From NCBI GenBank assembly GCA_016875195.1, contig VGRY01000010.1, forward strand, positions 1 to 64,000: a DNA stretch of 64,000 nucleotides, written 5' to 3'. Within the stretch, counting starts at the first letter, position 1. Every line of letters begins with the position of its first letter. This stretch comes from Deltaproteobacteria bacterium (GTDB taxonomy: Bacteria; Desulfobacterota; BSN033; UBA1163). Shown piece after piece: positions 8,928-29,721 of the stretch. The notes beneath the pieces were generated by a model. The model was given only the letters and a program-made list of their open reading frames with translations. It was not told where the DNA came from and did not search any database. Position numbers and translations under genes: made by a program.

Positions 8928-10046
8928 ATGAAGAAGTTAATCATATTATTGCTAATGTCCGGTTTGATCGGCGGGTGTGGGTCGAAGGAATCGGCCAGTG
9001 TTGAAAAACCTTCAATGGCTGCAGTCCAGATCTCGGAAGAGAGACAGGTGGAGGTAGCAGAGGTTGTTCCGAGGCCTATCTCCTACACGCTTTCAGCCGT
9101 GGGGGGTCTTAAAACTCCTGAACATGTGACGATCAGCCCCAAAAAGGCAGGAATCATTGAGAAGATCTCAGTCAGGGAAGGCGAAAGGGTTCGAAAGGGG
9201 CAGGTTCTGGTTCAATTAGATGATATGGATGCAAAGCTCCAGGTGGAGAGGGCAGCAGCAAGAGTGATGGAGGCTGAGGCTTCGCTGGAAACAAACCGGA
9301 ACACACTGCTCCGATATCAGAAACTCCTCGAATCGAAAGTCATTCCTCAACAGACGTTTGATGACATCAGCCTGAGGGTGAAACTGGATGAGGCGAGATT
9401 GGCGCTGGCAAGAACTGAATTGAATCTGGCAAAACAGAACCTTCAGGATCATCGGATCATCTCTCCCATTGAAGGGGTGATCAATCTTAAAATCGCTTCT
9501 CTCGGAGAGCACGTGAATGTGGCGCCCAAAGATGAAATCCTGACCATTGTCCAGATGGACCCGCTGGAATTGGAATTTTATGTGCCTGAGAATTGGGCGG
9601 GGAGGATTCGCCAGGGCAGCCAGATTCAATTCTCAATCAAGGCATTCAACGACGAGAAGCATTCGGCCACGCTTCAATTTATCAGCCCGACGGCTGATCC
9701 GGCAACCCGGAATGTGAAGATGAAAGCCATGGCCCCCAATCCCCATCACCGGCTAAAACCTGGTTTTTTTGCCGAGGTTACCCTTCCTGCTGGAACCAAT
9801 CCCAATGGCATTGCCATTCCAGAGTCTGCCCTTTTCAGCCAAGAGGGAAAGACCTTTGCCTTTGTGGTGAGGGAAGGAGTTGCCCTTCGGAGAGAAGTCG
9901 AAACCGGAACCCGCTTTAATGGAAAGGTGGAGATTAACAAAGGGATTCAGAAGGGGGAACGGATTGTCACCATCGGACACGAACAACTCACCGAAGGAAT
10001 GAAAGTTAAAATAAGCACCAAATCCCAAGCACCAAATCCCAAATAG
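8928..10046 (+). CDS. RND efflux periplasmic adaptor subunit (MFP)
   Basis: Lipoprotein signal; ISPKKAGIIEKISVREGERVRKGQVLVQLDDMDAKLQ; HRIISPIEGVINLKIASLGEHV. Confidence 0.93.
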   Translation: MKKLIILLLMSGLIGGCGSKESASVEKPSMAAVQISEERQVEVAEVVPRPISYTLSAVGGLKTPEHVTISPKKAGIIEKISVREGERVRKGQVLVQLDDMDAKLQVERAAARVMEAEASLETNRNTLLRYQKLLESKVIPQQTFDDISLRVKLDEARLALARTELNLAKQNLQDHRIISPIEGVINLKIASLGEHVNVAPKDEILTIVQMDPLELEFYVPENWAGRIRQGSQIQFSIKAFNDEKHSATLQFISPTADPATRNVKMKAMAPNPHHRLKPGFFAEVTLPAGTNPNGIAIPESALFSQEGKTFAFVVREGVALRREVETGTRFNGKVEINKGIQKGERIVTIGHEQLTEGMKVKISTKSQAPNPK

Positions 10047-20154: not shown

Positions 20155-20243
20155 GCCTGGGTGGCGGAATTGGTAGACGCAAGGGACTTAAAATCCCTCG
20201 GTGGTAACCCACCGTGCCGGTTCAAGTCCGGCCCCAGGCACCA
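20155..20243 (+). tRNA. tRNA-Leu(TAA), island integration site
   Basis: Acceptor GCCTGGG/CCCAGGC, anticodon loop CTTAAAATC, long variable arm CTCGGTGGTAACCCACCG, T-arm CCGGTTCAAGTCCGG, CCA. Confidence 0.96.
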
Positions 20244-20310
20244 TGATAGACAAGGGTTTGCGGGTTTTGAATGGTTTAAAACGCAAGCCCTTTTTTCTTG
20301 TCAAAAACAG

Positions 20311-20336
20311 TCCAGTCCCCATTTAGTCCCCACTTT
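20311..20336. repeat. Left-end copy of a 26-bp direct repeat, candidate integrase arm site
   Basis: TCCAGTCCCCATTTAGTCCCCACTTT vs TCCAGTCCCCACTCTGTCCCCACTTT at 29521-29546 (3 mismatches). Confidence 0.75.
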
Positions 20337-20342
20337 GGAAAA

Positions 20343-20567
20343 TCATTCGTGCTTATCAAGATATTCAAGGATTTTCTCTCGCTCAATCCCGTTCCAACAT
20401 TTTCGAAGGTTCATAGATTGACGGTATCCGTCTAACAGCTTCCGGCGATGAAAATATTTTTCTCTTGCGTCCTTCGGGGTTTTTTTTGAAAAAGTCCCCA
20501 AACTTTCTAAAAATTTCAGTTCGTCTTGTGTGTTCCAGACCATGTTGACCTCCGGCCCGTGTCCCAA
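20343..20567 (-). CDS. Small hypothetical protein (island)
   Basis: MVWNTQDELKFLESLGTFSKKTPKDAREKYFHRRKLLDGYRQSMNLRKCWNGIEREKILEYLDKHE; plausible coding composition. Confidence 0.55.
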   Translation of the reverse strand: MGHGPEVNMVWNTQDELKFLESLGTFSKKTPKDAREKYFHRRKLLDGYRQSMNLRKCWNGIEREKILEYLDKHE

Positions 20568-20647
20568 TAAATACCCTTCGGGAGAGTGCGTTTCTCGTTC
20601 ATATCAGACCGCTTTCCGTTCGTTTCAGAGGGTTCTTTGTTATCCTT

Positions 20648-20857
20648 TTACGGGTTCTCATCCCTGTTAAGGATAACTCGGCGGCCCTGTAACCATTCCA
20701 TAACGTCGGATTCAAGATAAACACGCGACCTCAAATTGAGTTTAACGAACGGAAGCCTTTGCCCGCGCCTCAAAGAGTGAAGCTCTGAAGGTTTCAGGTT
20801 CAAAAGTTTCAAAAGTTCGGCCTCCGTGATCATTCCCTTTAGCATTATCTCTGACAT
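20648..20857 (-). CDS. Small HTH (AlpA/HTH_17-like) DNA-binding protein
   Basis: MITEAELLKLLNLKPSELHSLRRGQRLPFVKLNLRSRVYLESDVMEWLQGRRV; start taken at MSEIM. Confidence 0.65.
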   Translation of the reverse strand: MSEIMLKGMITEAELLKLLNLKPSELHSLRRGQRLPFVKLNLRSRVYLESDVMEWLQGRRVILNRDENP

Positions 20858-21041
20858 AATCGGCCTCCATGCAGATTGAACGAATAGGGCAATACTCAAC
20901 CAAATTTTCCCCTTCGCATCTTTGACACGTCTTTTTTCGTTCCCGCCATTCTCGGAATCTTTCAAACGCCTCTTCTTTACTCATCCCGTAATGGATGTTT
21001 AAAACATTTTGCCAACGCTCGATCTCATCGCTTTTTTCCAT
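20742..21041 (-). CDS. Small Cys-rich (putative zinc-binding) protein
   Basis: CQRCEGENLVEYCPIRSICMEADY; its C-terminus overlaps the HTH gene in another frame. Confidence 0.5.
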   Translation of the reverse strand: MEKSDEIERWQNVLNIHYGMSKEEAFERFREWRERKKTCQRCEGENLVEYCPIRSICMEADYVRDNAKGNDHGGRTFETFEPETFRASLFEARAKASVR

Positions 21042-21225
21042 TGCCGTTATCCTTCCAACCTTGTCTTTTCAGCCATGCCGCAAGCTCTTCCGATAACGCC
21101 ACGGGTTTTCCGGTCGGACTCCGAAAGATAGGCATGGCAAATTTTTTATAATATTTGAAAAGCGTTTTTTCGCTCAACCCGCAATGCTTCCCAATCTCTT
21201 TCCAGCCCGTTATCCATCCGGCCAC
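21025..21225 (-). CDS. Small HTH DNA-binding protein
   Basis: WITGWKEIGKHCGLSEKTLFKYYKKFAMPIFRSPTGKPVALSEELAAWLKRQ. Confidence 0.65.
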   Translation of the reverse strand: MAGWITGWKEIGKHCGLSEKTLFKYYKKFAMPIFRSPTGKPVALSEELAAWLKRQGWKDNGNGKKR

Positions 21226-21239
21226 CTGTCACCTCTGCG

Positions 21240-21476
21240 TTATCGCTGACGCTGTTTTTTCAGTTCCTTGCCCCGTTGTTCATAAAAAAATTGCCGCCGT
21301 TTTTGCGCTTGTTTCAATCTCTCCCGCGCTATGTTTTGTTTCCATTTCCGGCGCTCTGCCGGACTCATGGCGTAAGAATGCCTTTTAACGGAAAGAGAAA
21401 TCCCCTCGACGCTCCATAGCCGTTTTAAATATCGGATTGACTTCTCAATCTGCGCTTGGTTCATTCTCAATCTCAA
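21240..21476 (-). CDS. Candidate ribosomal protein bS21-like protein
   Basis: IEKSIRYLKRLWSVEGISLSVKRHSYAMSPAERRKWKQNIARERLKQAQKRR aligns without gaps by eye to the bS21 pattern (F..ALRRFKR....G.L.EV+RR..Y..P..ERKR.K..A.+R). Confidence 0.55.
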   Translation of the reverse strand: MRLRMNQAQIEKSIRYLKRLWSVEGISLSVKRHSYAMSPAERRKWKQNIARERLKQAQKRRQFFYEQRGKELKKQRQR

Positions 21477-21642
21477 TCATCTCTCCGACGCTATACTGAA
21501 ACCCCGGAAGCGCTAAACCTTCCCGAATCAAACGGATTCCTTCTTGCTCGTCTATCTCGATGAAATCATCCGCCCGATAGCTTCTTGTTTCTCCGTCAAT
21601 TGTCAACGTTAAATCCGCTTTTAGTTTGATCTGTCTTTTCAT
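21445..21642 (-). CDS. Small island protein, single repeat unit
   Basis: LKADLTLTIDGETRSYRADDFIEIDEQEGIRLIREGLALPGF. Confidence 0.6.
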   Translation of the reverse strand: MKRQIKLKADLTLTIDGETRSYRADDFIEIDEQEGIRLIREGLALPGFQYSVGEMIEIENEPSAD

Positions 21643-21661
21643 TTTCCGTTACCTCCGGTTT

Positions 21662-22114
21662 TTATTTTCGGCTCTTATACGGCCCAAGTCCCATTTCCAT
21701 CAGCTTTCCCTGAAAGGCAGCCTCCGCTCTGGCCGCCTGCTCTTCTTCGGTTCGGTCCCGTCCTTTTAGAAGTTTTCTGTTATTCGGTCGCCATTGATCT
21801 TCGTCACACGGAAGGATTGCGCCTTCAAGTAAAAGCGCTAACGCTTGTTCGGCTTTTAAAATGACCTTTTCCATTCGCTTCGCCTCAAATGCCTTGACCT
21901 TCCCTGAAAGCTTAATATCTCGAAGTGCGATATATTCCGCCGTCGCCGGAAGGTCTGCGGGAATCACCCGACCCACTTGAACCAAACCGAAAGCTTCTTG
22001 CGCATTTGAAATTTCAATCTCTTCGCCCGCCGCCTTCACCGATCCCCCCCAACTGAAAGATTTAACCACTTTGAATTTGTGAGGCCCGCTCTGTGCCTTT
22101 TTTATAATCTCCAT
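21662..22114 (-). CDS. Small island protein, two repeat units
   Basis: FKVVKSFSWGGSVKAAGEEIEISNAQEAFGLVQVGRVIPADL + YIALRDIKLSGKVKAFEAKRMEKVILKAEQALALLLEGAILP; start at MEIIKK. Confidence 0.65.
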   Translation of the reverse strand: MEIIKKAQSGPHKFKVVKSFSWGGSVKAAGEEIEISNAQEAFGLVQVGRVIPADLPATAEYIALRDIKLSGKVKAFEAKRMEKVILKAEQALALLLEGAILPCDEDQWRPNNRKLLKGRDRTEEEQAARAEAAFQGKLMEMGLGPYKSRK

Positions 22115-22115
22115 C

Positions 22116-22556
22116 TTATCGGCCCCCCTTCCGTATCCAGTTTTCCGGCGCGGGTTCATCATCGAACATTCGCACCGGTTCTTTTGCCTTCACGTTTGAT
22201 TGCAAAAGTTTCCGCGGACTCCATTCATCATCGGAAAGCCTCTTGATATGGCCCGACGCCAACAATGAGCAAGCAAGCTCTTGAAGAAGATTGACCTCTT
22301 TCCCCGCCGCCGCCGTCCGCGGAAATCCTTCCTCCGTCTGATAGGAAAAAGAATGAACGGCGCGATACGTTCCTTTTTTCGGGATATACTTTTCATCAAT
22401 GACCGTGAGTTTTCCCCCGCCCAAAAGGTTAAAAATCGCTTCGCCTTCTTCATCACAATCCATTTCAAAAAGGTCGCCAATGTTTTTTTGAACCATCGCC
22501 CCCCGCTTTTTATCCTCAACCCAGAATGCCCGAAGTGCTTTAACTTTCATTTTCAA
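22116..22556 (-). CDS. Small island protein, two repeat units
   Basis: VKALRAFWVEDKKRGAMVQKNIGDLFEMDCDEEGEAIFNLLGGGKLTVI + YRAVHSFSYQTEEGFPRTAAAGKEVNLLQELACSLLASGHIKRL. Confidence 0.65.
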   Translation of the reverse strand: MKMKVKALRAFWVEDKKRGAMVQKNIGDLFEMDCDEEGEAIFNLLGGGKLTVIDEKYIPKKGTYRAVHSFSYQTEEGFPRTAAAGKEVNLLQELACSLLASGHIKRLSDDEWSPRKLLQSNVKAKEPVRMFDDEPAPENWIRKGGR

Positions 22557-22962
22557 AACCTCCTCTCTTTTCTCTGACGTCGCCGGTTCTCAAAAACTGA
22601 ACCGCTTCATCTTTCGTAAGTTTTAGAGTGTCGCCCTTCTTTACTCGGAAATATTCGCCGTTTTGAATCACCTGAAAATCCCTGACGGCTTCAAAATGCT
22701 CCCCCAACTCAACCGGAATGACCCGCCCCGAAAAAAACATTTCATCCCCGAACCGTTGTGACAGTAAAAGCCTCCATCCCTTTTCGACTCTTTGAAGAGG
22801 CCCGTCAACGACCTGCAAAAAAAACGGCTTCTCAACAATGTAAAATTTTCCCTCGTCTAACGTGACGCCTAACTGTGCAATAAAATTCTCCTCCATCCTT
22901 TTCACCTCCAGTCTGCTATAAAATTTTTTCGCCGTTCCCTTCTCAATCCGCCGCTCGGCCAA
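22540..22962 (-). CDS. Small island protein, two repeat units
   Basis: ...LLLSQRFGDEMFFSGRVIPVEL + FEAVRDFQVIQNGEYFRVKKGDTLKLTKDEAVQFLRTGDV. Confidence 0.6.
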   Translation of the reverse strand: MAERRIEKGTAKKFYSRLEVKRMEENFIAQLGVTLDEGKFYIVEKPFFLQVVDGPLQRVEKGWRLLLSQRFGDEMFFSGRVIPVELGEHFEAVRDFQVIQNGEYFRVKKGDTLKLTKDEAVQFLRTGDVREKRGGFENES

Positions 22963-23111
22963 CCGTATGTTTCATCTTGTAACAGCGGATGAGGTTTCTT
23001 TGGTTTCTCAACTTTTTCAATGACTCTCGAAACGATCTTTTGAATTTTCTTCTTTGGACTCCTGATATTCCAGAAACCCTTCCTCATCTTTGCCCCCAGT
23101 CTGAAATCCAA
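22902..23111 (-). CDS. Small basic hypothetical protein
   Basis: Short basic ORF between terL and the small-protein array, overlapping both neighbours slightly. Confidence 0.35.
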   Translation of the reverse strand: MDFRLGAKMRKGFWNIRSPKKKIQKIVSRVIEKVEKPKKPHPLLQDETYGWPSGGLRRERRKNFIADWR

Positions 23112-24895
23112 CCTGAAGCCCTCTGAACCGGCGCGGTTTCCTCTGTGTGTTCTTTTGTCAAACGGTCAACGGCCCGATCTAAATTGACGTTCAGAATCGC
23201 AAGCGCCGCCATTGCGTAAACGCGGCAGTCTAAAGCGTCATTGCGCGGTCGTGTTTTCACCCATTGCCGCGTCGGAAAACCCCGAACGTATTTTGTTATG
23301 ACTTTTTCCGCGGTCAACTGTTTGAAGTATTCTTCATCGTGATTTATTGTGAAGTGCATGAAGCCCGCGCCGTGTTCTTCAATCCGCAACCTCGAATAAA
23401 TTGATTCTTTAGCTGTGTCCGCGCCGACCGGAAACAACGTGACCCGCCCTTCGTTTCGATTTGACGGCCTTGCAATGATAGGCCGACCCGCCTGATTGAT
23501 TCCCTTGACGGCATAAACGCGCCGGATCTGCCGCGGCTTTACGAAGTCATAGACCTGTTTTGTATGATGCCCGCCCGAATCAATACAAGCGCAAGCAATT
23601 CTTAATTGAGCGCCGCTTTCGTGTGTCCACGGCTCGGAAAGATACTCGTCAAGTTCATTCCAAATTTTTCTTTCCGCCGGATTGCCGTAAAAAATCGAAT
23701 ACTCCATTGACCATGACTCTTCGCCTTTGCCCCACGCTACGACTTCACACTCCAAGCGGTTGTCTTGAACGTCAACGCCCGCGGTTAGAATCGCCGCGCC
23801 CGCCGGAATCTCCGGCCCAAAATCCTCCCTTCTTGCCATTAAGCCCTCATCGCTCACGGTCTCGCCTTCTTGTTCCCATGTTTCCGCAAGCGCCGTATTG
23901 ATAAAAACCCGCAAGGTTTCTTTGCTCTTCTTCGCTTCAAGAAATCGCGCCGCCATGTCACCGAACGAAACCCACGGGCTATAAAGTTCATTTAACCAGA
24001 AGCCCGCGACCCCGCTTGATTCCTTTGAGGCCCGCCATTCGCCTTCTCGAACCATCCTGATTTTGTCGGCGTCGGTTATTATTCCTTCGCAATGTTCGCA
24101 ATGATAGACCGCCCTTTTCGGTTCGCCTTTCGGCCATTTGACTTGACTCCATTGCAAAACCTGAAATTCTCCGCAATGTGGACAAGGCACGTAAAATTTC
24201 CGCATATCGCTTGCCTCGTATGCTGTTTCAATTCTCGAAAACCCCTTGACGGTCGGCGTCGAAAACATCCCTTTTTTTCTATTCCAAAACGTTGTAGCTC
24301 TCTTAAAAGCCAACTCGACTGGATCGCCTTCAGTTCCGGCGGAAGGCGGGAAGGCGTCAACGTCGTCACATAGGACAATGCGAATCGGTCGCGCCCGTAA
24401 ACTTGCCGCGCTGTTTGCCCCCGCTACCGTGATATGTCCGCCCAAAAAAGTTTTGTGCAAAACCGTGTTTCCCGAATCTCTTGCTCGAACATCTTTTACC
24501 TTTCCTTTAAGGCATGGAGTGTCTCGAAGCATCGGCGCGAACCTGTCTTTTGACCATGCCTTCGCAATTTCAAGCGTCGGTTCTACAATCAGAATAGGCG
24601 CGGCGTCTTGATCTATAAAAAATCCTGTCACGTTGTTTAGAATCTCCGTCTTTCCCACCTGTGCCGCGGTCATAACAACGACCGTTTCAATCGAAGGGTT
24701 AGAGAAGGCGTCCATGATTCCCTTCTGGTATGCCGCCCGACTGGTAAACCAGCGGCCCGCCTCCGCGCTACTTTCCCCGCTTAACACTCTTCGCTTGTCG
24801 GCCCACTCTGCGACCGTGAGTTTTGACGGCGGCTTCAACGTCGCGCATATCTCTTTGATTGCGGCTTCGATGTTTTTTAAGGTTCGGGTTTGCAA
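23084..24895 (-). CDS. Phage terminase large subunit (lambda gpA-like)
   Basis: LTVAEWADKRRVLSGESSAEAGRWFTSRAAYQKGIMDAFSNPSIETVVVMTAAQVGKTEILNNVTGFFIDQDAAPILIVEPTLEIAKAWSKDRFAPMLRDTP. Confidence 0.95.
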   Translation of the reverse strand: MQTRTLKNIEAAIKEICATLKPPSKLTVAEWADKRRVLSGESSAEAGRWFTSRAAYQKGIMDAFSNPSIETVVVMTAAQVGKTEILNNVTGFFIDQDAAPILIVEPTLEIAKAWSKDRFAPMLRDTPCLKGKVKDVRARDSGNTVLHKTFLGGHITVAGANSAASLRARPIRIVLCDDVDAFPPSAGTEGDPVELAFKRATTFWNRKKGMFSTPTVKGFSRIETAYEASDMRKFYVPCPHCGEFQVLQWSQVKWPKGEPKRAVYHCEHCEGIITDADKIRMVREGEWRASKESSGVAGFWLNELYSPWVSFGDMAARFLEAKKSKETLRVFINTALAETWEQEGETVSDEGLMARREDFGPEIPAGAAILTAGVDVQDNRLECEVVAWGKGEESWSMEYSIFYGNPAERKIWNELDEYLSEPWTHESGAQLRIACACIDSGGHHTKQVYDFVKPRQIRRVYAVKGINQAGRPIIARPSNRNEGRVTLFPVGADTAKESIYSRLRIEEHGAGFMHFTINHDEEYFKQLTAEKVITKYVRGFPTRQWVKTRPRNDALDCRVYAMAALAILNVNLDRAVDRLTKEHTEETAPVQRASGWISDWGQR

Positions 24896-25298
24896 GTTCT
24901 GTCAAGACCTCGTGAACGAATTTTTCTGCAACGTCATTGACCTCTGATAAAGATTTTGCACCGAAAACCAACGGCCCTAACTTCGACGGCATGGCTAACA
25001 GCTTTGACCGGATAGTTTGAACGACCGCGCCCCAACGTTTCATTGCTTCTTCTGTGTCAATCAGTTTCCCCCGCGCTATTTCCAGTTCCAATTCTTTTTT
25101 ATCGGCTTGAATTTTTATTAACCTTGTCCGCTCTTCTGTTAAATCGGTCTTATCACTCGCTGTCTTTAAGTGCCGGATATACGCCGCCGTGATCTGTTTT
25201 GGTTCGCCGGTCTTTGGCAAAATTCCCATTGCCGTCAATCTTGAAACGTGACGCTCTGTAATACAGAGTGCCTCTGATTTATCTTTTATTGTCCACAC
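24768..25298 (-). CDS. Phage terminase small subunit (Nu1-like)
   Basis: N-terminal HTH ALCITERHVSRLTAMGILPK; coiled RTRLIKIQADKKELELEIARGKLIDTEEAMKRWGAVVQTIRSKLLAMPSKLGP; just upstream of terL. Confidence 0.82.
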   Translation of the reverse strand: MWTIKDKSEALCITERHVSRLTAMGILPKTGEPKQITAAYIRHLKTASDKTDLTEERTRLIKIQADKKELELEIARGKLIDTEEAMKRWGAVVQTIRSKLLAMPSKLGPLVFGAKSLSEVNDVAEKFVHEVLTELANPNLKKHRSRNQRDMRDVEAAVKTHGRRVGRQAKSVKRGK

Positions 25299-25432
25299 AT
25301 TTTCCCCCGACTGACATTGAAAAATTTAGGCCCAACGCTGACGAAATGATGCGACCTTCGGATGACCCGCATGAAACAGACAGGAAGGACCCGCTAAAGC
25401 CCGCTCTCCCTTGTCTATCAACGCTTTCCCGT

Positions 25433-25963
25433 TCATCGCTTAAAAACTCTTTTTTTAATTTCTTCTGGAAATAATTTTTGCATTGATTCGTTGATACGCT
25501 TCTGAACCTTGTCCATAATGTTGTCCAGCTTTACAATCTCGGTCACGGCTGGCCCTGCCATGTGTTTAATCGGAAATCGCTTCTCTGTTTTTCTTCTGAA
25601 AACTTTCCCCCCAAACTTCCGAATGATAAACGCCGACGGATAAACAGAAGCGCCACTCTTCCGAACGTGTGCAACGACGCCTGTCGCGGTCTGTCTTGCT
25701 CGGAAATAAGCCAAACTCAATTTTTTTCTTGCAATTCTGATTTTAGTTTCAAGCGCGGTCTGTGTCGTCCGCTGGACTTCGGTCACGTCCCTGACATCTT
25801 TGGGTTTGATGTTGTAGTTATCGCTCACGGCCTTGACTATCTCCTGTTTTCCCTGTGTGGCGCTCCTGTCAAGTGTCGAACGGATCGCCGCCTTGACCTT
25901 CTTACTGTCGAATTGTTCCAGCGCTTCTTTGACGCCCTTCAATTCAAAACTCGGTTTAATCAT
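25433..25963 (-). CDS. Prophage minor tail protein Z (GPZ)-like
   Basis: VKAAIRSTLDRSATQGKQEIVKAVSDNYNIKPKDVRDVTEVQRTTQTALETKIRIARKKLSLAYFRARQTATGV. Confidence 0.65.
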   Translation of the reverse strand: MIKPSFELKGVKEALEQFDSKKVKAAIRSTLDRSATQGKQEIVKAVSDNYNIKPKDVRDVTEVQRTTQTALETKIRIARKKLSLAYFRARQTATGVVAHVRKSGASVYPSAFIIRKFGGKVFRRKTEKRFPIKHMAGPAVTEIVKLDNIMDKVQKRINESMQKLFPEEIKKRVFKR

Positions 25964-25975
25964 TTTGCCTCCGAT

Positions 25976-26173
25976 CTATGCCCATGCCCGCGGCCTTGTG
26001 TGTGCCGCCCTGACAATCCGGCAAATAAGAAAATTTATTCCTTCGATCTCTTCGTCTGAATCAGCCGATAACATGGCCTCGTTTATTTTCTCATCGAAGT
26101 CCAAAAGTCCGTTTGCCCCTCGGTCTAAAGAATCAAAAGCCCTCTGAATGAGTATCGCGGTTTTTTTATTCAT
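25976..26173 (-). CDS. Small hypothetical protein
   Basis: MNKKTAILIQRAFDSLDRGANGLLDFDEKINEAMLSADSDEEIEGINFLICRIVRAA; good spacing with neighbours. Confidence 0.5.
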   Translation of the reverse strand: MNKKTAILIQRAFDSLDRGANGLLDFDEKINEAMLSADSDEEIEGINFLICRIVRAAHTRPRAWA

Positions 26174-27033
26174 TTGACCCCCAACATTTTCTTTTGCTCA
26201 TTGAGAAGCCGCCGGCGCTCGGCTTCATCTTCTCCGTTGTCGCTGTGCCTTTTAATGCCCATAGCACGGAGAAGTTTCTCTGCATTCAGTTTTTGATTTC
26301 CACTTAAAGGCGGGTTTGATGTTTGGATTTGGGTTTCAGGTTTTGAAGAAAAAGAAAAATTTGAGAAAACGACATTCTCTTCATTCTTTAAATTCTTTTC
26401 TTTTAATTCTTTAAAAGACTTTTCTTTAGTGTCGGAAAAATTTTGGTTCGCTGTCGGTTCGCTGTCGGTTCGCTGTCGGTTTAGGCTGTCGGAATGGAAA
26501 ATTTCGGAATCAGTAACATCTGAAAATTTAAAACTGTTTTTTGAAATTTTGGGTTGTCGGTTTAGGATGCCGGAATTTCGGGGTTTTTCTTTTGGCGACC
26601 CCTTACTCTTCGGTTTTAGGCTGTCGGTTCGCTGTCGGATTTGAAAATCTTCCTTCTGGTAAATGTCCCAATTCGTTATTGAAATCAAACTTTTTAGGTT
26701 GTCGGATAAAATTTCAATATTTCCCATCTCCGACAACTTTAAAATGCGACCCCAAACAGAAGAGGGTTTCATTCTCAATCGTCTTGCGGCGTCAAGGCGT
26801 CCGAATACAAATTGACCGGCGGAAAGTTTCACCTCTGTCACTCCCTTGCCGCATTTCACGGCTTCCCATCGTTCGGAGTGTGAGGCGCGCATTAAGCACC
26901 ACGTCCAGACCTTCCAAAGCGACGCGTCTTGAAAAACTTGGGATTCAAGCGATTGACGCCAAAGTTTGACCCATCCGCCGCCGTGATTTTCGTTAGCCAT
27001 CGGCTTTACTCCGCCAACCGGCCTTCCAGCCAT
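26170..27033 (-). CDS. Phage-type replication initiator / replisome organiser
   Basis: GGGWVKLWRQSLESQVFQDASLWKVWTWCLMRASHSERWEAV...VKLSAGQFVFGRLDAARRLRMKPSSVWGRILKLSEMGNIEI...ITNWDIYQ. Confidence 0.75.
   Translation of the reverse strand: MAGRPVGGVKPMANENHGGGWVKLWRQSLESQVFQDASLWKVWTWCLMRASHSERWEAVKCGKGVTEVKLSAGQFVFGRLDAARRLRMKPSSVWGRILKLSEMGNIEILSDNLKSLISITNWDIYQKEDFQIRQRTDSLKPKSKGSPKEKPRNSGILNRQPKISKNSFKFSDVTDSEIFHSDSLNRQRTDSEPTANQNFSDTKEKSFKELKEKNLKNEENVVFSNFSFSSKPETQIQTSNPPLSGNQKLNAEKLLRAMGIKRHSDNGEDEAERRRLLNEQKKMLGVK
26445..26640. repeat. Iteron-like repeats (GGTTCGCTGTC and GGTTTAGGCTGTC variants) inside the replication gene
   Basis: GGTTCGCTGTC at 26445-26455, 26456-26466, 26467-26477, 26626-26636; GGTTTAGGCTGTC 26478-26490; GGTTTAGGATGCC 26559-26571; GGTTTTAGGCTGTC 26612-26625. 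Confidence 0.85.
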
Positions 27034-27227
27034 TTTATGACGCTCTGGACGGGATAGCCGATCTTTCGGCCTATACGAAAGCGACCCTCCGGCCCCGCGC
27101 CTTGACTGTCCATATTGGCAAGGGTTTTTGAATCAATAAGCCCGCCGGAGAAGTTTCTGACTTCGGTTCGGGCAACGAACGGAGAAGGCCACGTTTTTGC
27201 TAAAATTGAGAAATCAGGTTTTGACAT
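27006..27227 (-). CDS. AlpA/excisionase-like HTH protein
   Basis: GGLIDSKTLANMDSQGAGPEGRFRIGRKIGYPVQSVIKWLEGRL. Confidence 0.75.
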   Translation of the reverse strand: MSKPDFSILAKTWPSPFVARTEVRNFSGGLIDSKTLANMDSQGAGPEGRFRIGRKIGYPVQSVIKWLEGRLAE

Positions 27228-27286
27228 TAGGCACCTCCAATATTGTTTTGGAGATACCGTAACATTTGGGAAGGATAGGAAAGCGA

Positions 27287-28204
27287 CTAAACTGGCTTAT
27301 TTTTTCGGTGGGTTTTAACGTAGTTTTTAAACTGGCTAAAAGTGATTCTTTTATCTTTCATGGTTTGAACTTTTTTTAATTTTCCAACGCTGTTAAAAGT
27401 TCTAATCGTCATCAAATTCTCTGTTTCATCATCGTCTGTTTCATCCCTATCGAAAAATAAATCAGAATTTATCGTTTCGAAATGTTCGTCGCCGAAATAT
27501 CTTTTTTTCAAATATTCCCACATTCCCAACGCCGTTTTTTGCCTTGCTTCCCGTTCGGCTTTCTTTATGGCCTCAAAGACAGCGGGGATTTTTTGGCGCA
27601 TCTTTCCACCCTTTGCCCCTGCCTTTTTTGAGTGACCCTTCAGTTTTAACTTCTGAATTATTTCAGACTCCTTCAAAAATGCTTCTGCAAGCAAAAGGTT
27701 TTTTAAAATCTCTCGCTCGCTGTAATCACCATCTTTCGTTAAAACTGCCTCCAGACAATCCCACGCAAGGTAAATCGAAAAGACTGCAAGCATTTTGAAA
27801 TCTTCAACCTCTTTTGCCCCCTCAAACGTTCGCCCATAATCCCGCGCATGAAATAGAATCTCCGAATGTCTGATTTGATCCGGATCCGCGGGATTGAAGA
27901 TTTGAGAGGCTCCAAAAATATCAAGGACGTGCCAAAAAATCCCGCGCGCTGTTAGAAGTTCCCCCTCTGGATACCATGATACTTTTTCCGGCTTCGGCCA
28001 TGACCTTGAATCAGGTAAACCAAGATGATCCCCGACCCCCCAGACCGAACGGCCCCCACGGATGATTTTTAAGCATCTTAATTCAATAGGATCGCAATAA
28101 ATTTCTGGTTTGTCTGTCTTTAAAAAGTTAAAAGGAATTGACCCAAACAGCGGACACCACGGAGAGTTATTTTCAAACCATTTTCTGATAGCCATGTCAA
28201 CCAT
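27287..28204 (-). CDS. Hypothetical island protein
   Basis: Long 305 aa ORF flush with the integrase gene; no family recognised. Confidence 0.7.
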   Translation of the reverse strand: MVDMAIRKWFENNSPWCPLFGSIPFNFLKTDKPEIYCDPIELRCLKIIRGGRSVWGVGDHLGLPDSRSWPKPEKVSWYPEGELLTARGIFWHVLDIFGASQIFNPADPDQIRHSEILFHARDYGRTFEGAKEVEDFKMLAVFSIYLAWDCLEAVLTKDGDYSEREILKNLLLAEAFLKESEIIQKLKLKGHSKKAGAKGGKMRQKIPAVFEAIKKAEREARQKTALGMWEYLKKRYFGDEHFETINSDLFFDRDETDDDETENLMTIRTFNSVGKLKKVQTMKDKRITFSQFKNYVKTHRKNKPV

Positions 28205-28214
28205 AACTGCCCCC

Positions 28215-29423
28215 TTATTTTCTCAACTCAATGACATTGGTTTTTTCTTCTTTGGCCTCTGCTATGCCGTTTTCAAACCGTTTCATCGCGGTTTTTAAGC
28301 CCTCCGGCGATAAATGGGAATATCGTTCAGTCATCCCGATTGTGCCGTGTCCTAACAATTCCTTGACCGTGTAAAGGTCGGTCCCGCCTTGGACGTGCCA
28401 ACTTGCAAAACTGTGGCGCAAGGAGTGAAAGCAAACCTTTTGCCGCCGGTCTGCAAGCCCTCTATTCAACCCCACCGCGTCAACCGCGCTCTTAAATGTC
28501 TTTGGAATCTCTGTGAACGGTTCGCCGTCGCTGTTTGGGAAAACGACGTCCTCCGGCCCCCCACGGTTCATCTTCAAAAACATTTCCCTGACTTCGCCGG
28601 TCATATAAGCCGCCCGACTCTTCCCGCTCTTCCCGTCGGATACACGGATTAAACCCCGCTCTGTGTCAATGTGGCCCCATTTTAAGGCGAAAATTTCACC
28701 GGCCCTTAAGCCACTATGCAAACTTAAAAAAGCCATCCTGTAAACCTTGAAATCCCGTTTCTGTAAATCTTCAAGGAGTGCCGCCGCCTCATCATGGGTT
28801 AAAAACCGCTGTCGCCGGTTATCGAATTTCGGAATCTTGACTTGTTTAGTCGGTGAATCTTCAAAGACAACCCTGTCACGGCGCGCTTGATTCCAGATAG
28901 TTCTGACCGTTGTAAAAACGGCCTGAACGGTTCGCGGCGACCTTCCGGCGTCAATAAGATTTTTTTTGATTCGTTCAATAGCAATCGGTGTGATTTTTCC
29001 AAGCTCCATTGACTTTAAAACCGGAGAAATCCAAAGTTTGAAATGCTCCAATTCTTTTTTGTGTGACCCTGCCTTTTTGCTTGTCTGTGCGCTCGGATAA
29101 TACGACTTTTCAAAATACTCCCCGAACGTCAAGGCGTCTTTTTCGGTCTTTTGCTTTTTCTGTTTTTCCCGTTCTCTTTTCTCTTGAAGCGTTAAAGGTT
29201 TTCCTTCCCCTAACCGGAAGTTCTTTTTTAACTCTGCAAGCTCCGCCGCGGCCTTCTCTGCCGACCATTTTTCACTTGACCAGCCAATCCCCTCTTCATG
29301 GCGCTTGCCGTCCATCTGATAACGAATCGCAAAATAACGATCCATCGCGACCCCGCATCTTCTTGTTCCGTGTTCTCGAAACCTGACGCCCGGATACTTT
29401 GTCTTTTTCCATTTTCTCATCAT
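28215..29423 (-). CDS. Tyrosine recombinase/integrase
   Basis: FLSLHSGLRAGEIFALKWGHID...VCFHSLRHSFASWHVQGGTDLYTVKELLGHGTIGMTERYSHLSPE; start taken at MMRKWKKTKYPGV after a G-rich RBS. Confidence 0.93.
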   Translation of the reverse strand: MMRKWKKTKYPGVRFREHGTRRCGVAMDRYFAIRYQMDGKRHEEGIGWSSEKWSAEKAAAELAELKKNFRLGEGKPLTLQEKREREKQKKQKTEKDALTFGEYFEKSYYPSAQTSKKAGSHKKELEHFKLWISPVLKSMELGKITPIAIERIKKNLIDAGRSPRTVQAVFTTVRTIWNQARRDRVVFEDSPTKQVKIPKFDNRRQRFLTHDEAAALLEDLQKRDFKVYRMAFLSLHSGLRAGEIFALKWGHIDTERGLIRVSDGKSGKSRAAYMTGEVREMFLKMNRGGPEDVVFPNSDGEPFTEIPKTFKSAVDAVGLNRGLADRRQKVCFHSLRHSFASWHVQGGTDLYTVKELLGHGTIGMTERYSHLSPEGLKTAMKRFENGIAEAKEEKTNVIELRK

Positions 29424-29443
29424 AAGGCCCCCTTTCGGGATAA

Positions 29444-29546
29444 AAATCCCTCGGTAAAAACGGGGACTGGACAGTCCCCGTTTAGTCCCAAAAAAAATCC
29501 CTCGGTAAAATCCCTCGGTATCCAGTCCCCACTCTGTCCCCACTTT
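29444..29546. repeat. Cluster of att-like and arm-like sites between integrase and att repeat
   Basis: AAATCCCTCGGTA at 29444-29456, 29495-29507, 29508-29520; palindrome AAACGGGGACTG-GA-CAGTCCCCGTTT 29458-29483; 26-bp repeat 29521-29546. Confidence 0.85.
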
Positions 29547-29662
29547 TTAAAAGAAATGAAGGGTTTTGTTGTGACGCTATGGGAAAAATAATAACACGGA
29601 AGTTTTTGAAATGTCAAGGGAAAAGTTATTTTGCAGGAAATTATAGGAAAGGTTATAGAAAA

Positions 29663-29721
29663 GACTTAAAATCCCTCGGTGGTCCCCCACCGTGCCGGTT
29701 CAAGTCCGGCCCTAGGCACCA
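29663..29721 (+). repeat. Right att repeat: partial tRNA-Leu 3' copy
   Basis: 59 bp matching 20185-20243 with 3 mismatches. Confidence 0.95.

Follow-up and report, generated by a model that had tools for sequence, protein, structure and literature searches.

The window, which denotes the whole 64,000-nucleotide stretch analysed here, contains a 9.5-kb island in tRNA-Leu(TAA) that encodes a full-length terminase without recognisable shell genes. How could such an element be packaged? To our knowledge, every phage satellite yet described either makes its own heads or diverts the motor of a helper. The initial annotation offered two readings of this locus: a reduced prophage, or a satellite equipped with a full terminase of its own.

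The island (20185..29721) extends between the attL and attR repeats and is 94% coding, with all its genes on the minus strand. The integration target, tRNA-Leu(TAA) (20155..20243, plus strand), was identified by ARAGORN and was the sole match in an Rfam scan. Its 3' 59 bp, attL (20185–20243, plus strand), are repeated with 95% identity as attR (29663..29721, plus strand), and this is the longest direct repeat of the region. Four congeners (G002, G003, G006, and G007) contain an uninterrupted tRNA-Leu(TAA) near ilvD, the final 59 bp of which match the right repeat at 100% identity and the left one at 95%, and no island-protein matches were found in the 6.9–7.8 kb stretches around these genes. 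The empty sites indicate a site-specific insertion, in which the left repeat was brought by the element and attR, followed by a terminator, is the native tRNA 3' end of the host. The earlier description of an approximately 9.5-kb island bounded by a 59-bp repeat in this tRNA is thus borne out. Two copies of a 32-nt repeat with 84% identity (20311..20342 and 29521..29552, plus strand) are candidate arm-type sites of the integrase, a function that is inferred.

The gene next to attR encodes a tyrosine integrase (28215..29543; PF00589, 2e-28; phrog_1, 1e-64). It is adjoined by orf305 (27287..28204), which is distant from the packaging genes, belongs to no Pfam or PHROGs family and yielded an unusable structure model (pLDDT 37), and then by a 73-aa ORF (27006..27227), HTH-like by eye, with no family matched. 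The next gene, rep (26170..27033; phrog_2514, 1e-21), has a homologue in G014 and a 43–48% match to L031. A phage replication initiator had been noted in the island; a replication gene is indeed present, but its product is of the DnaD-like helicase-loader type and not a generic initiator. Within rep, an iteron array (26430..26735) with an 11-bp tandem and ten copies of TGTCGG, versus 0.17 expected in 360 bp, is the probable origin. Near attL, an AlpA-like HTH protein of the excisionase/regulator type (20648..20965; PF12728, 3e-7; phrog_66, 5e-6) is encoded beside the cysteine-rich orf99 (20742..21041), which is shared with the G003 island (L030:9415-9732, 52 aa at 60% identity), and a 66-aa HTH protein (21025..21225; weak phrog_66, 0.004). 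No confident family was found for ORFs of 65 aa (25976..26173), 78 aa (21240..21476), and 74 aa (20343..20567), and none was matched by a 69-aa ORF (22902..23111) overlapping the r140 gene described below.

The terminase comprises a Nu1-like TerS (24768..25298; phrog_57, 2e-23) and a full-length TerL of the gpA type with both domains (23084..24895; PF05876 and PF20454, about 1e-90 and 1e-102; phrog_15), the true start of which is probably inside the terS overlap. A GpZ-like tail-completion or neck protein (25433..25963; PF06763, 2e-8; phrog_27 'tail completion or Neck1', 1e-24) is encoded upstream of terS. Pfam and PHROGs matches confirm the integrase, AlpA-like HTH, TerS, TerL, and GpZ-like proteins initially recognised on one strand. 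The reported absence of portal, protease, capsid, tail-tube, holin, and lysin genes also stands, since none of these families was found among all island ORFs with Pfam, PHROGs, and a portal profile; likewise, no island ORF matched a Sid, Psu, or delta-type family in Pfam or PHROGs.

The reading frames had been judged intact, and all of them are open, but in the catalytic motifs of TerL two glutamates at invariant positions are replaced by Asp, both changes being unique to this protein: one at the Walker-B catalytic position (about residue 166) and one at a conserved nuclease-motif position (about residue 541). It is alone among 183 aligned TerLs in having Asp at both; neither glutamate is lost in any other portal-less TerL of the alignment. 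It retains 93 of the 97 conserved columns, an ordinary number. Conservative Walker-B swaps abolish packaging in T4 (PMC3012670), and whether the island copy still functions has to be left open on the basis of sequence.

The longest non-coding gap of the island (25299..25432, minus strand) lies before terS and holds a putative cos site with the cosN core AGCGGGTCCTTCCTGT (25380..25395, minus strand), conserved upstream of terS in relatives. The motif GCGGGTCC is located before terS in 12 of 91 relatives, versus 1.6 expected, and a cos matrix score of at least 12 is reached at about a quarter of the gpA-type loci (24/91), compared with none on the antisense strand and three inside TerL. With a matrix trained without the island site, 25380–25395 is the top-scoring site in the window, but a site in host DNA, at 9550, has almost the same score. 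The record of phage Lily, a 5' cos phage (PMC6070908), begins within a variant of the cos-like motif. No stable structure was revealed in the region by single-strand folding (z 1.3). The assignment of cos rests on motif and position only, and its cleavage is inferred.

The region after TerL is not featureless, being occupied by repeated phage FI-like domains. Repeat alignment and profile comparison identified about seven copies in four proteins: r140 (22540..22962; probably two copies, one of which was entered in the profile), r146 (22116..22556; two copies), r166 (21662..22162; two copies), and r65 (21445..21642; one copy), with weak phrog_2616 matches for r146 and r65. The domain resembles phage proteins at the position of the lambda packaging chaperone gpFI: all seven phage matches to the profile share the strand of TerL and are located 3.7–6.8 kb downstream of it, and five are placed between genes for the capsid and for head closure. 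The sequence similarity is weak (best E 0.005), and the fold match to gpFI (2lsm) was not significant (E 0.64). The r proteins may be described as resembling gpFI-like packaging chaperones, with binding to proheads or terminase being inferred.

The layout differs from that of most relatives, in which a portal is encoded directly downstream of TerL (about 166 of 173 testable gpA-type loci); portals in relatives measure about 490–500 aa. Portal-less TerL loci are also found in SAR324, Krumholzibacteriota, and Gemmatimonadota; the SAR324 locus L044 shows an equivalent gene order, and the portal-less TerLs of L062 and L080 form a supported clade in the tree. Congener G003 contains an independent capsid-less terminase island, with a different TerL and in another tRNA, that has in common with the studied island the module of adjoining orf99 and alpA. 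Two further candidates were rejected: L237, in which the portal is not adjacent to TerL, has tail genes after TerL, while L071, retaining TerL and one small gene with the portal gone, looks like a deletion remnant. The status of L035 is ambiguous: its TerL is followed by a serine recombinase gene ending at a tRNA and then by host genes, but only 4.6 kb of contig precede TerL, and shell genes could lie beyond that end.

Searches of viral contigs with orf305, TerS, and r166 as markers recovered only an identical copy (L002), and an orf99 profile hit the source genome alone in a draw of 395 genomes from the phylum, the G003 copy having come from a separate search. Since only one independent copy of the exact element is available, no selection test could be performed.

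With modest confidence, the island is probably an integrative phage satellite that would package its DNA with its own TerS, TerL, and cos into helper proheads. The satellite with its own terminase is favoured by the island's own set of integrase, replicon, TerS, TerL, and putative cos in the absence of shell genes, and by the empty congener sites and the second island in the genus. Upon helper infection, the island would be excised and replicated from the iteron origin, and TerS-TerL would cut the concatemers of the satellite at its own cos. The proteins with FI-like domains may aid docking of the satellite terminase-DNA complex on helper proheads, and GpZ may assist in joining filled heads to helper tails, while portal, capsid, tail, and lysis functions would be supplied by the helper. 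A 9.5-kb genome would be packaged as several copies per full-size head or in a small head. Against this reading stand the Asp residues at both TerL catalytic positions, the putative status of cos, the weak FI similarity, the single independent copy, and the failure to find, among ten congeners in the genus, a helper whose portal matches.

The main rival is a temperate phage with a GpZ-cos-TerS-TerL-portal order from which all genes from the portal through lysis were deleted, leaving a remnant that no longer moves or is mobilised only by accident, with the TerL changes reflecting early decay. The satellite proposal was to be refuted if relatives carried the same genes within a full prophage; the whole set was found in no full prophage, but the GpZ-TerS-TerL block, followed by a portal, is present in two of them (L085 and L051), so that a prophage origin of this block is likely. 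The nearest TerL relative in the tree, viral contig L233, also bears a portal, and L071 shows that such deletions happen. On the other hand, the high coding density, open frames, both att sites, and ordinary conservation of TerL count against this rival; the genes after TerL are a repeated-domain set, neither portal debris nor host genes, and an independent island of like design is located in another tRNA of a congener. We regard a reduced prophage as the less likely of the two readings; a deletion remnant cannot be ruled out entirely, the more so in view of the active-site changes.

Less probable still, by a wide step, is an interference element with a non-motor terminase, in which TerS and TerL would bind or cut the cos of an invader or stall it via mixed motors, so that the host is protected or the helper's own motor packages satellite DNA. 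The Walker-B change, which by analogy with T4 should block translocation, occurs in a protein that is well conserved elsewhere and would suit such a role, but the nuclease motif is changed too, the other portal-less TerLs aligned keep both glutamates, and PADLOC found no defence family among ten proteins tested from this and the G003 island. A small complete phage with capsid or portal genes too diverged to recognise is nearly excluded by ORF sizes: orf305 has neither family nor usable model, but it lies beside the integrase, and apart from it only the integrase, TerL, and Rep exceed 180 aa, leaving no room for a portal of the usual length.

If the satellite reading is extended to the portal-less loci of other phyla, a multi-phylum class can be suggested, only tentatively and against the balance of our own judgement. 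Its members would carry a complete packaging-initiation kit (cos, TerS, and TerL) and no shell, capturing finished helper proheads at the motor-docking step; in the studied island the kit would be supplemented by a neck protein and by FI-like domains, present in several copies, that serve in docking. Such satellites would neither redirect the helper terminase nor build their own capsids. The element would make it testable whether a foreign terminase docks on the portal of another phage, and whether competition between terminases is settled by FI-type chaperones. A TerL gene alone in a metagenome does not imply a full virus.

No precedent for a capsid-less layout with its own TerS, TerL, and cos was found in the literature searched, which did not cover the main satellite surveys; AH14b (PMC4936722) was considered and rejected, as it has no recognisable terminase. 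Like the full gpA-type prophages G042, L085, and L051 and phage Lily, the TerLs of which are 46–57% identical to that of the island, the element has TerS before TerL and a cos-like motif before terS, and GpZ is encoded upstream also in L085 and L051; in all four, however, TerL is followed by a portal gene and, beyond it, by more genes for head and tail. PICMIs are likewise minimal integrative satellites with AlpA, integrase, and a replication gene, but they lack packaging genes (PMC10803314) and are located next to fis rather than in tRNA-Leu. P4-like elements resemble the island in integrase, AlpA, own replication, size of about 10 kb, and the expected helper shell. In P4, the helper terminase acts on the P4 cos and capsids are resized by Sid (PMC10690885), whereas the island has its own TerS and TerL and no Sid or Psu match. 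Streptomyces satellites MulchRoom and MiniFlayer also possess TerS and TerL, but they have genes for portal and capsid and none for a primase (PMC10690885), a gene content that is reversed in the island.

The island shares with PICIs and SaPIs its size, integrase, regulator, own replication genes, and lack of capsid and lysis genes. SaPIs have TerS only or use the helper cos, and proteobacterial PICIs redirect the helper TerS with Rpp (PMC10690885), unlike the island with its full-length TerL, the activity of which is inferred, and its own putative cos. Cf-PICIs are similarly integrated, with an AlpA-type regulator, own TerS and TerL, and the need of a helper for at least the tail; their gene set extends to capsid, protease, portal, and connectors (PMC10690885), whereas in the island no capsid, protease, or portal is recognised and GpZ alone represents the neck and tail-completion functions. 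Overall, the island does not fit the definition of a cf-PICI, PICI or SaPI, P4-like element, PICMI, or complete temperate phage, but it agrees with phage satellites in general in being integrated, with an integrase, its own replication gene, and an incomplete virion gene set, its mobilisation in helper particles being inferred. An element with a whole motor and packaging site but without a head would occupy the space that separates PICIs from cf-PICIs.

The candidate satellite at positions 20185–29721 of the window is flanked by a 59-bp direct repeat, 95% identical between its two copies, that derives from the 3' end of tRNA-Leu(TAA), as expected for the tRNA-bounded island proposed in the initial annotation. 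Four congeners carry an uninterrupted tRNA-Leu(TAA) near ilvD, the last 59 bp of which are 100% identical to the right copy in the window and 95% identical to the left one, indicating that the right copy is the native tRNA end and the left copy was imported. Judged from sequence, this is the arrangement that insertion by an integrase normally leaves behind. No matches to island proteins were found in the 6.9–7.8 kb stretches read at the tRNA-Leu(TAA) sites of these four congeners. The host genome is a MAG with 87% completeness and 5% contamination. All island genes are located on the minus strand, with a coding fraction of 94%, and non-coding stretches longer than 60 bp are limited to four, namely the two att ends, one gap of 80 bp and one of 134 bp preceding terS. 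A 25-nt sequence right beside attL (20244–20268) recurs as an inverted copy with 84% identity directly left of the putative cosN (25396–25420) and may be a trace of assembly of the element from phage ends. A 7387-bp IMG/VR contig (IMGVR_UViG_3300020198_001193) is 100% identical to window positions 20470–27856; a publicly available collection thus lists the candidate satellite as viral.

Pfam and PHROGs searches recovered the gene set first read from the sequence alone, comprising integrase, AlpA-like HTH protein, GpZ tail-completion/neck protein and the two terminase subunits. TerS falls in phrog_57, and TerL has both gpA domains. Neither search matched a portal, capsid, tail-tube or lysis family in the island, in agreement with the first reading. 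Only the integrase, TerL, Rep and orf305, a protein of no family encoded beside the integrase, exceed 180 aa in the ORF list, which by ORF size leaves no room for a hidden portal. The replication protein is identified in these searches as a DnaD-like helicase loader. Its gene contains ten copies of TGTCGG within about 300 bp, versus 0.17 expected per 360 bp, some of them arranged as an exact 11-bp tandem. In phage lambda the origin sits inside gene O, and by comparison this array is probably the replication origin.

On the terS strand, the 134-bp gap before this gene contains AGCGGGTCCTTCCTGT. Of 91 loci, 12, belonging to several phyla, have the core GCGGGTCC upstream of TerL on that strand, versus about 1.6 expected, and a weight matrix reached a score of at least 12 in 24 of the 91, versus none in antisense orientation and 3 within TerL; the matrix was built partly from loci also counted among the 24. 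When it was trained without the window, the site before terS ranked first in the 64 kb. A second strong match, AGCGGGTCCATCTGGA, located in the host part at 9550–9565 on the minus strand, far from any terminase, scores nearly as high and probably arose by chance; position therefore counts as much as motif in calling cos. The DNA of phage Lily ends in 12-nt 5' cohesive overhangs (PMC6070908), and the start of its record falls within a motif variant, GGGGCG|GGTGCGCGTGAGCCCG. Identification of the window motif as cosN rests on sequence alone; it is a good inference but remains unproved. In several full prophages (L085, L051, L237), GpZ immediately precedes terS rather than lying in the connector block, and a cos-like motif separates the two genes in L085 and L051.

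A portal profile made from relatives was run on all loci to assess how rare the lack of this gene is. The portal lies directly downstream of gpA-type TerL on the same strand in 90 loci taken from an initial scan of viral contigs, from genomes and from phages, and in 76 of the 77 testable loci of a second viral-contig scan. Besides the window, seven loci with enough downstream sequence lack it in that place. The Lysinibacillus locus L071 has the appearance of a deletion, and L237 is a full phage with another gene order. Locus L030, which belongs to G003 (below), has a different TerL type. The Ignavibacteria locus L035 (2865–8484) comprises an HNH nuclease, a cos-like motif, ParB-like and Mom-like genes and TerL, after which come a serine recombinase that ends at tRNA-Glu and then host genes; its contig stops upstream, and its status as a satellite remains undecided. 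The SAR324 locus L044 has the order of the window, with a replication gene, GpZ, TerS, TerL and AlpA. The Krumholzibacteriota locus L062 encodes, in this order, serine integrase, replication genes, ParB-methyltransferase, TerS and TerL, followed by host-like genes, and in L080 (Gemmatimonadota), as in L062, a ParB-like gene precedes TerL. L062 and L080 are sisters in the TerL tree with 100% support, while the other portal-less TerLs are scattered, indicating that portal-less terminases originated more than once. One small TerL lineage appears, from the tree, to have lasted without a portal, and L062 and L080 could represent a second lineage of terminase satellites, L062 having a serine integrase.

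A domain of about 45 residues recurs about seven times across r140, r146, r166 and r65, the island proteins encoded after TerL. A profile of six copies identified seven ORFs at E<0.5 among all fetched loci, all on the TerL strand and 3.7–6.8 kb downstream of TerL, a zone holding 6.6% of ORFs; five of them sit between the capsid gene and head-closure or head-tail genes. All four that were tested match phrog_2616, also a weak top match for r146 and for r65, and one of the four has a weak match to "DNA packaging chaperone FI." For r166, the predicted fold (domain pLDDT about 75–80) is similar to DUF7210/DUF2635 phage proteins; its match to lambda gpFI was not significant. Lambda gpFI, attached to the prohead lattice, aids association of the terminase–DNA complex with the prohead (PMC4856287). 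We suggest that the FI-like proteins would likewise aid docking of the satellite terminase on helper heads.

Among 183 aligned TerLs, two residues are unique to that of the window: Asp in place of the Walker-B catalytic glutamate (CDDVD) and Asp within RNEALDC in the nuclease domain. Both glutamates are retained in the other portal-less loci of the alignment. Over the conserved columns, the window protein agrees at 93 of 97, an ordinary count. In the T4 motor, packaging is abolished when Asp and Glu are conservatively exchanged in Walker B (PMC3012670). Either the motor tolerates the change, or packaging is being lost in this copy, or the protein now serves another purpose; the two residues are the chief warning against assuming that the island packages DNA.

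In a genome of the same genus, G003, tRNA-Met harbours an island of 13 kb that has a repeat of 74 bp (86% identical) and is bordered by host genes. It encodes integrase, AlpA, a homologue of the cysteine-rich orf99 found beside alpA in the window, TerL of a different type (phrog_675), a TerS-like HTH protein, primase-helicase and regulators, and none of its small ORFs matched a capsid family. A contig of G014, from the same family, carries a TerL that shares 61% identity with the G003 protein, and a homologue of the window Rep; it stops just after TerL, and capsid genes beyond would not show. By their predicted gene content, the three elements hold common modules in differing combinations, as mobile elements do. 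No helper portal above family cut-offs was found in ten congeners, which makes an infecting phage the probable helper, if one exists. In one congener a portal family is matched only weakly, short of its cut-off (PF04860, 2.8e-4; G009:C16:3608–4123), possibly a prophage remnant or a distant helper.

The literature searched, which did not cover the main satellite surveys, offered no precedent for a satellite that has TerS, TerL and cos but no capsid, and the claim of novelty is limited accordingly. The island resembles a PICI in outline. It fails a defining test for each of the PICI/SaPI, cf-PICI and P4-like elements, in line with the unusual layout noted initially, and also one for PICMIs. PICMIs are without packaging genes, whereas the island has TerS and TerL; cf-PICIs and Streptomyces satellites encode TerS, TerL and capsid, whereas no capsid was recognised here; and P4 and SaPI-type elements use the TerL of their helper, whereas the island encodes a full TerL of its own (PMC10690885, PMC10803314, PMC11389934).
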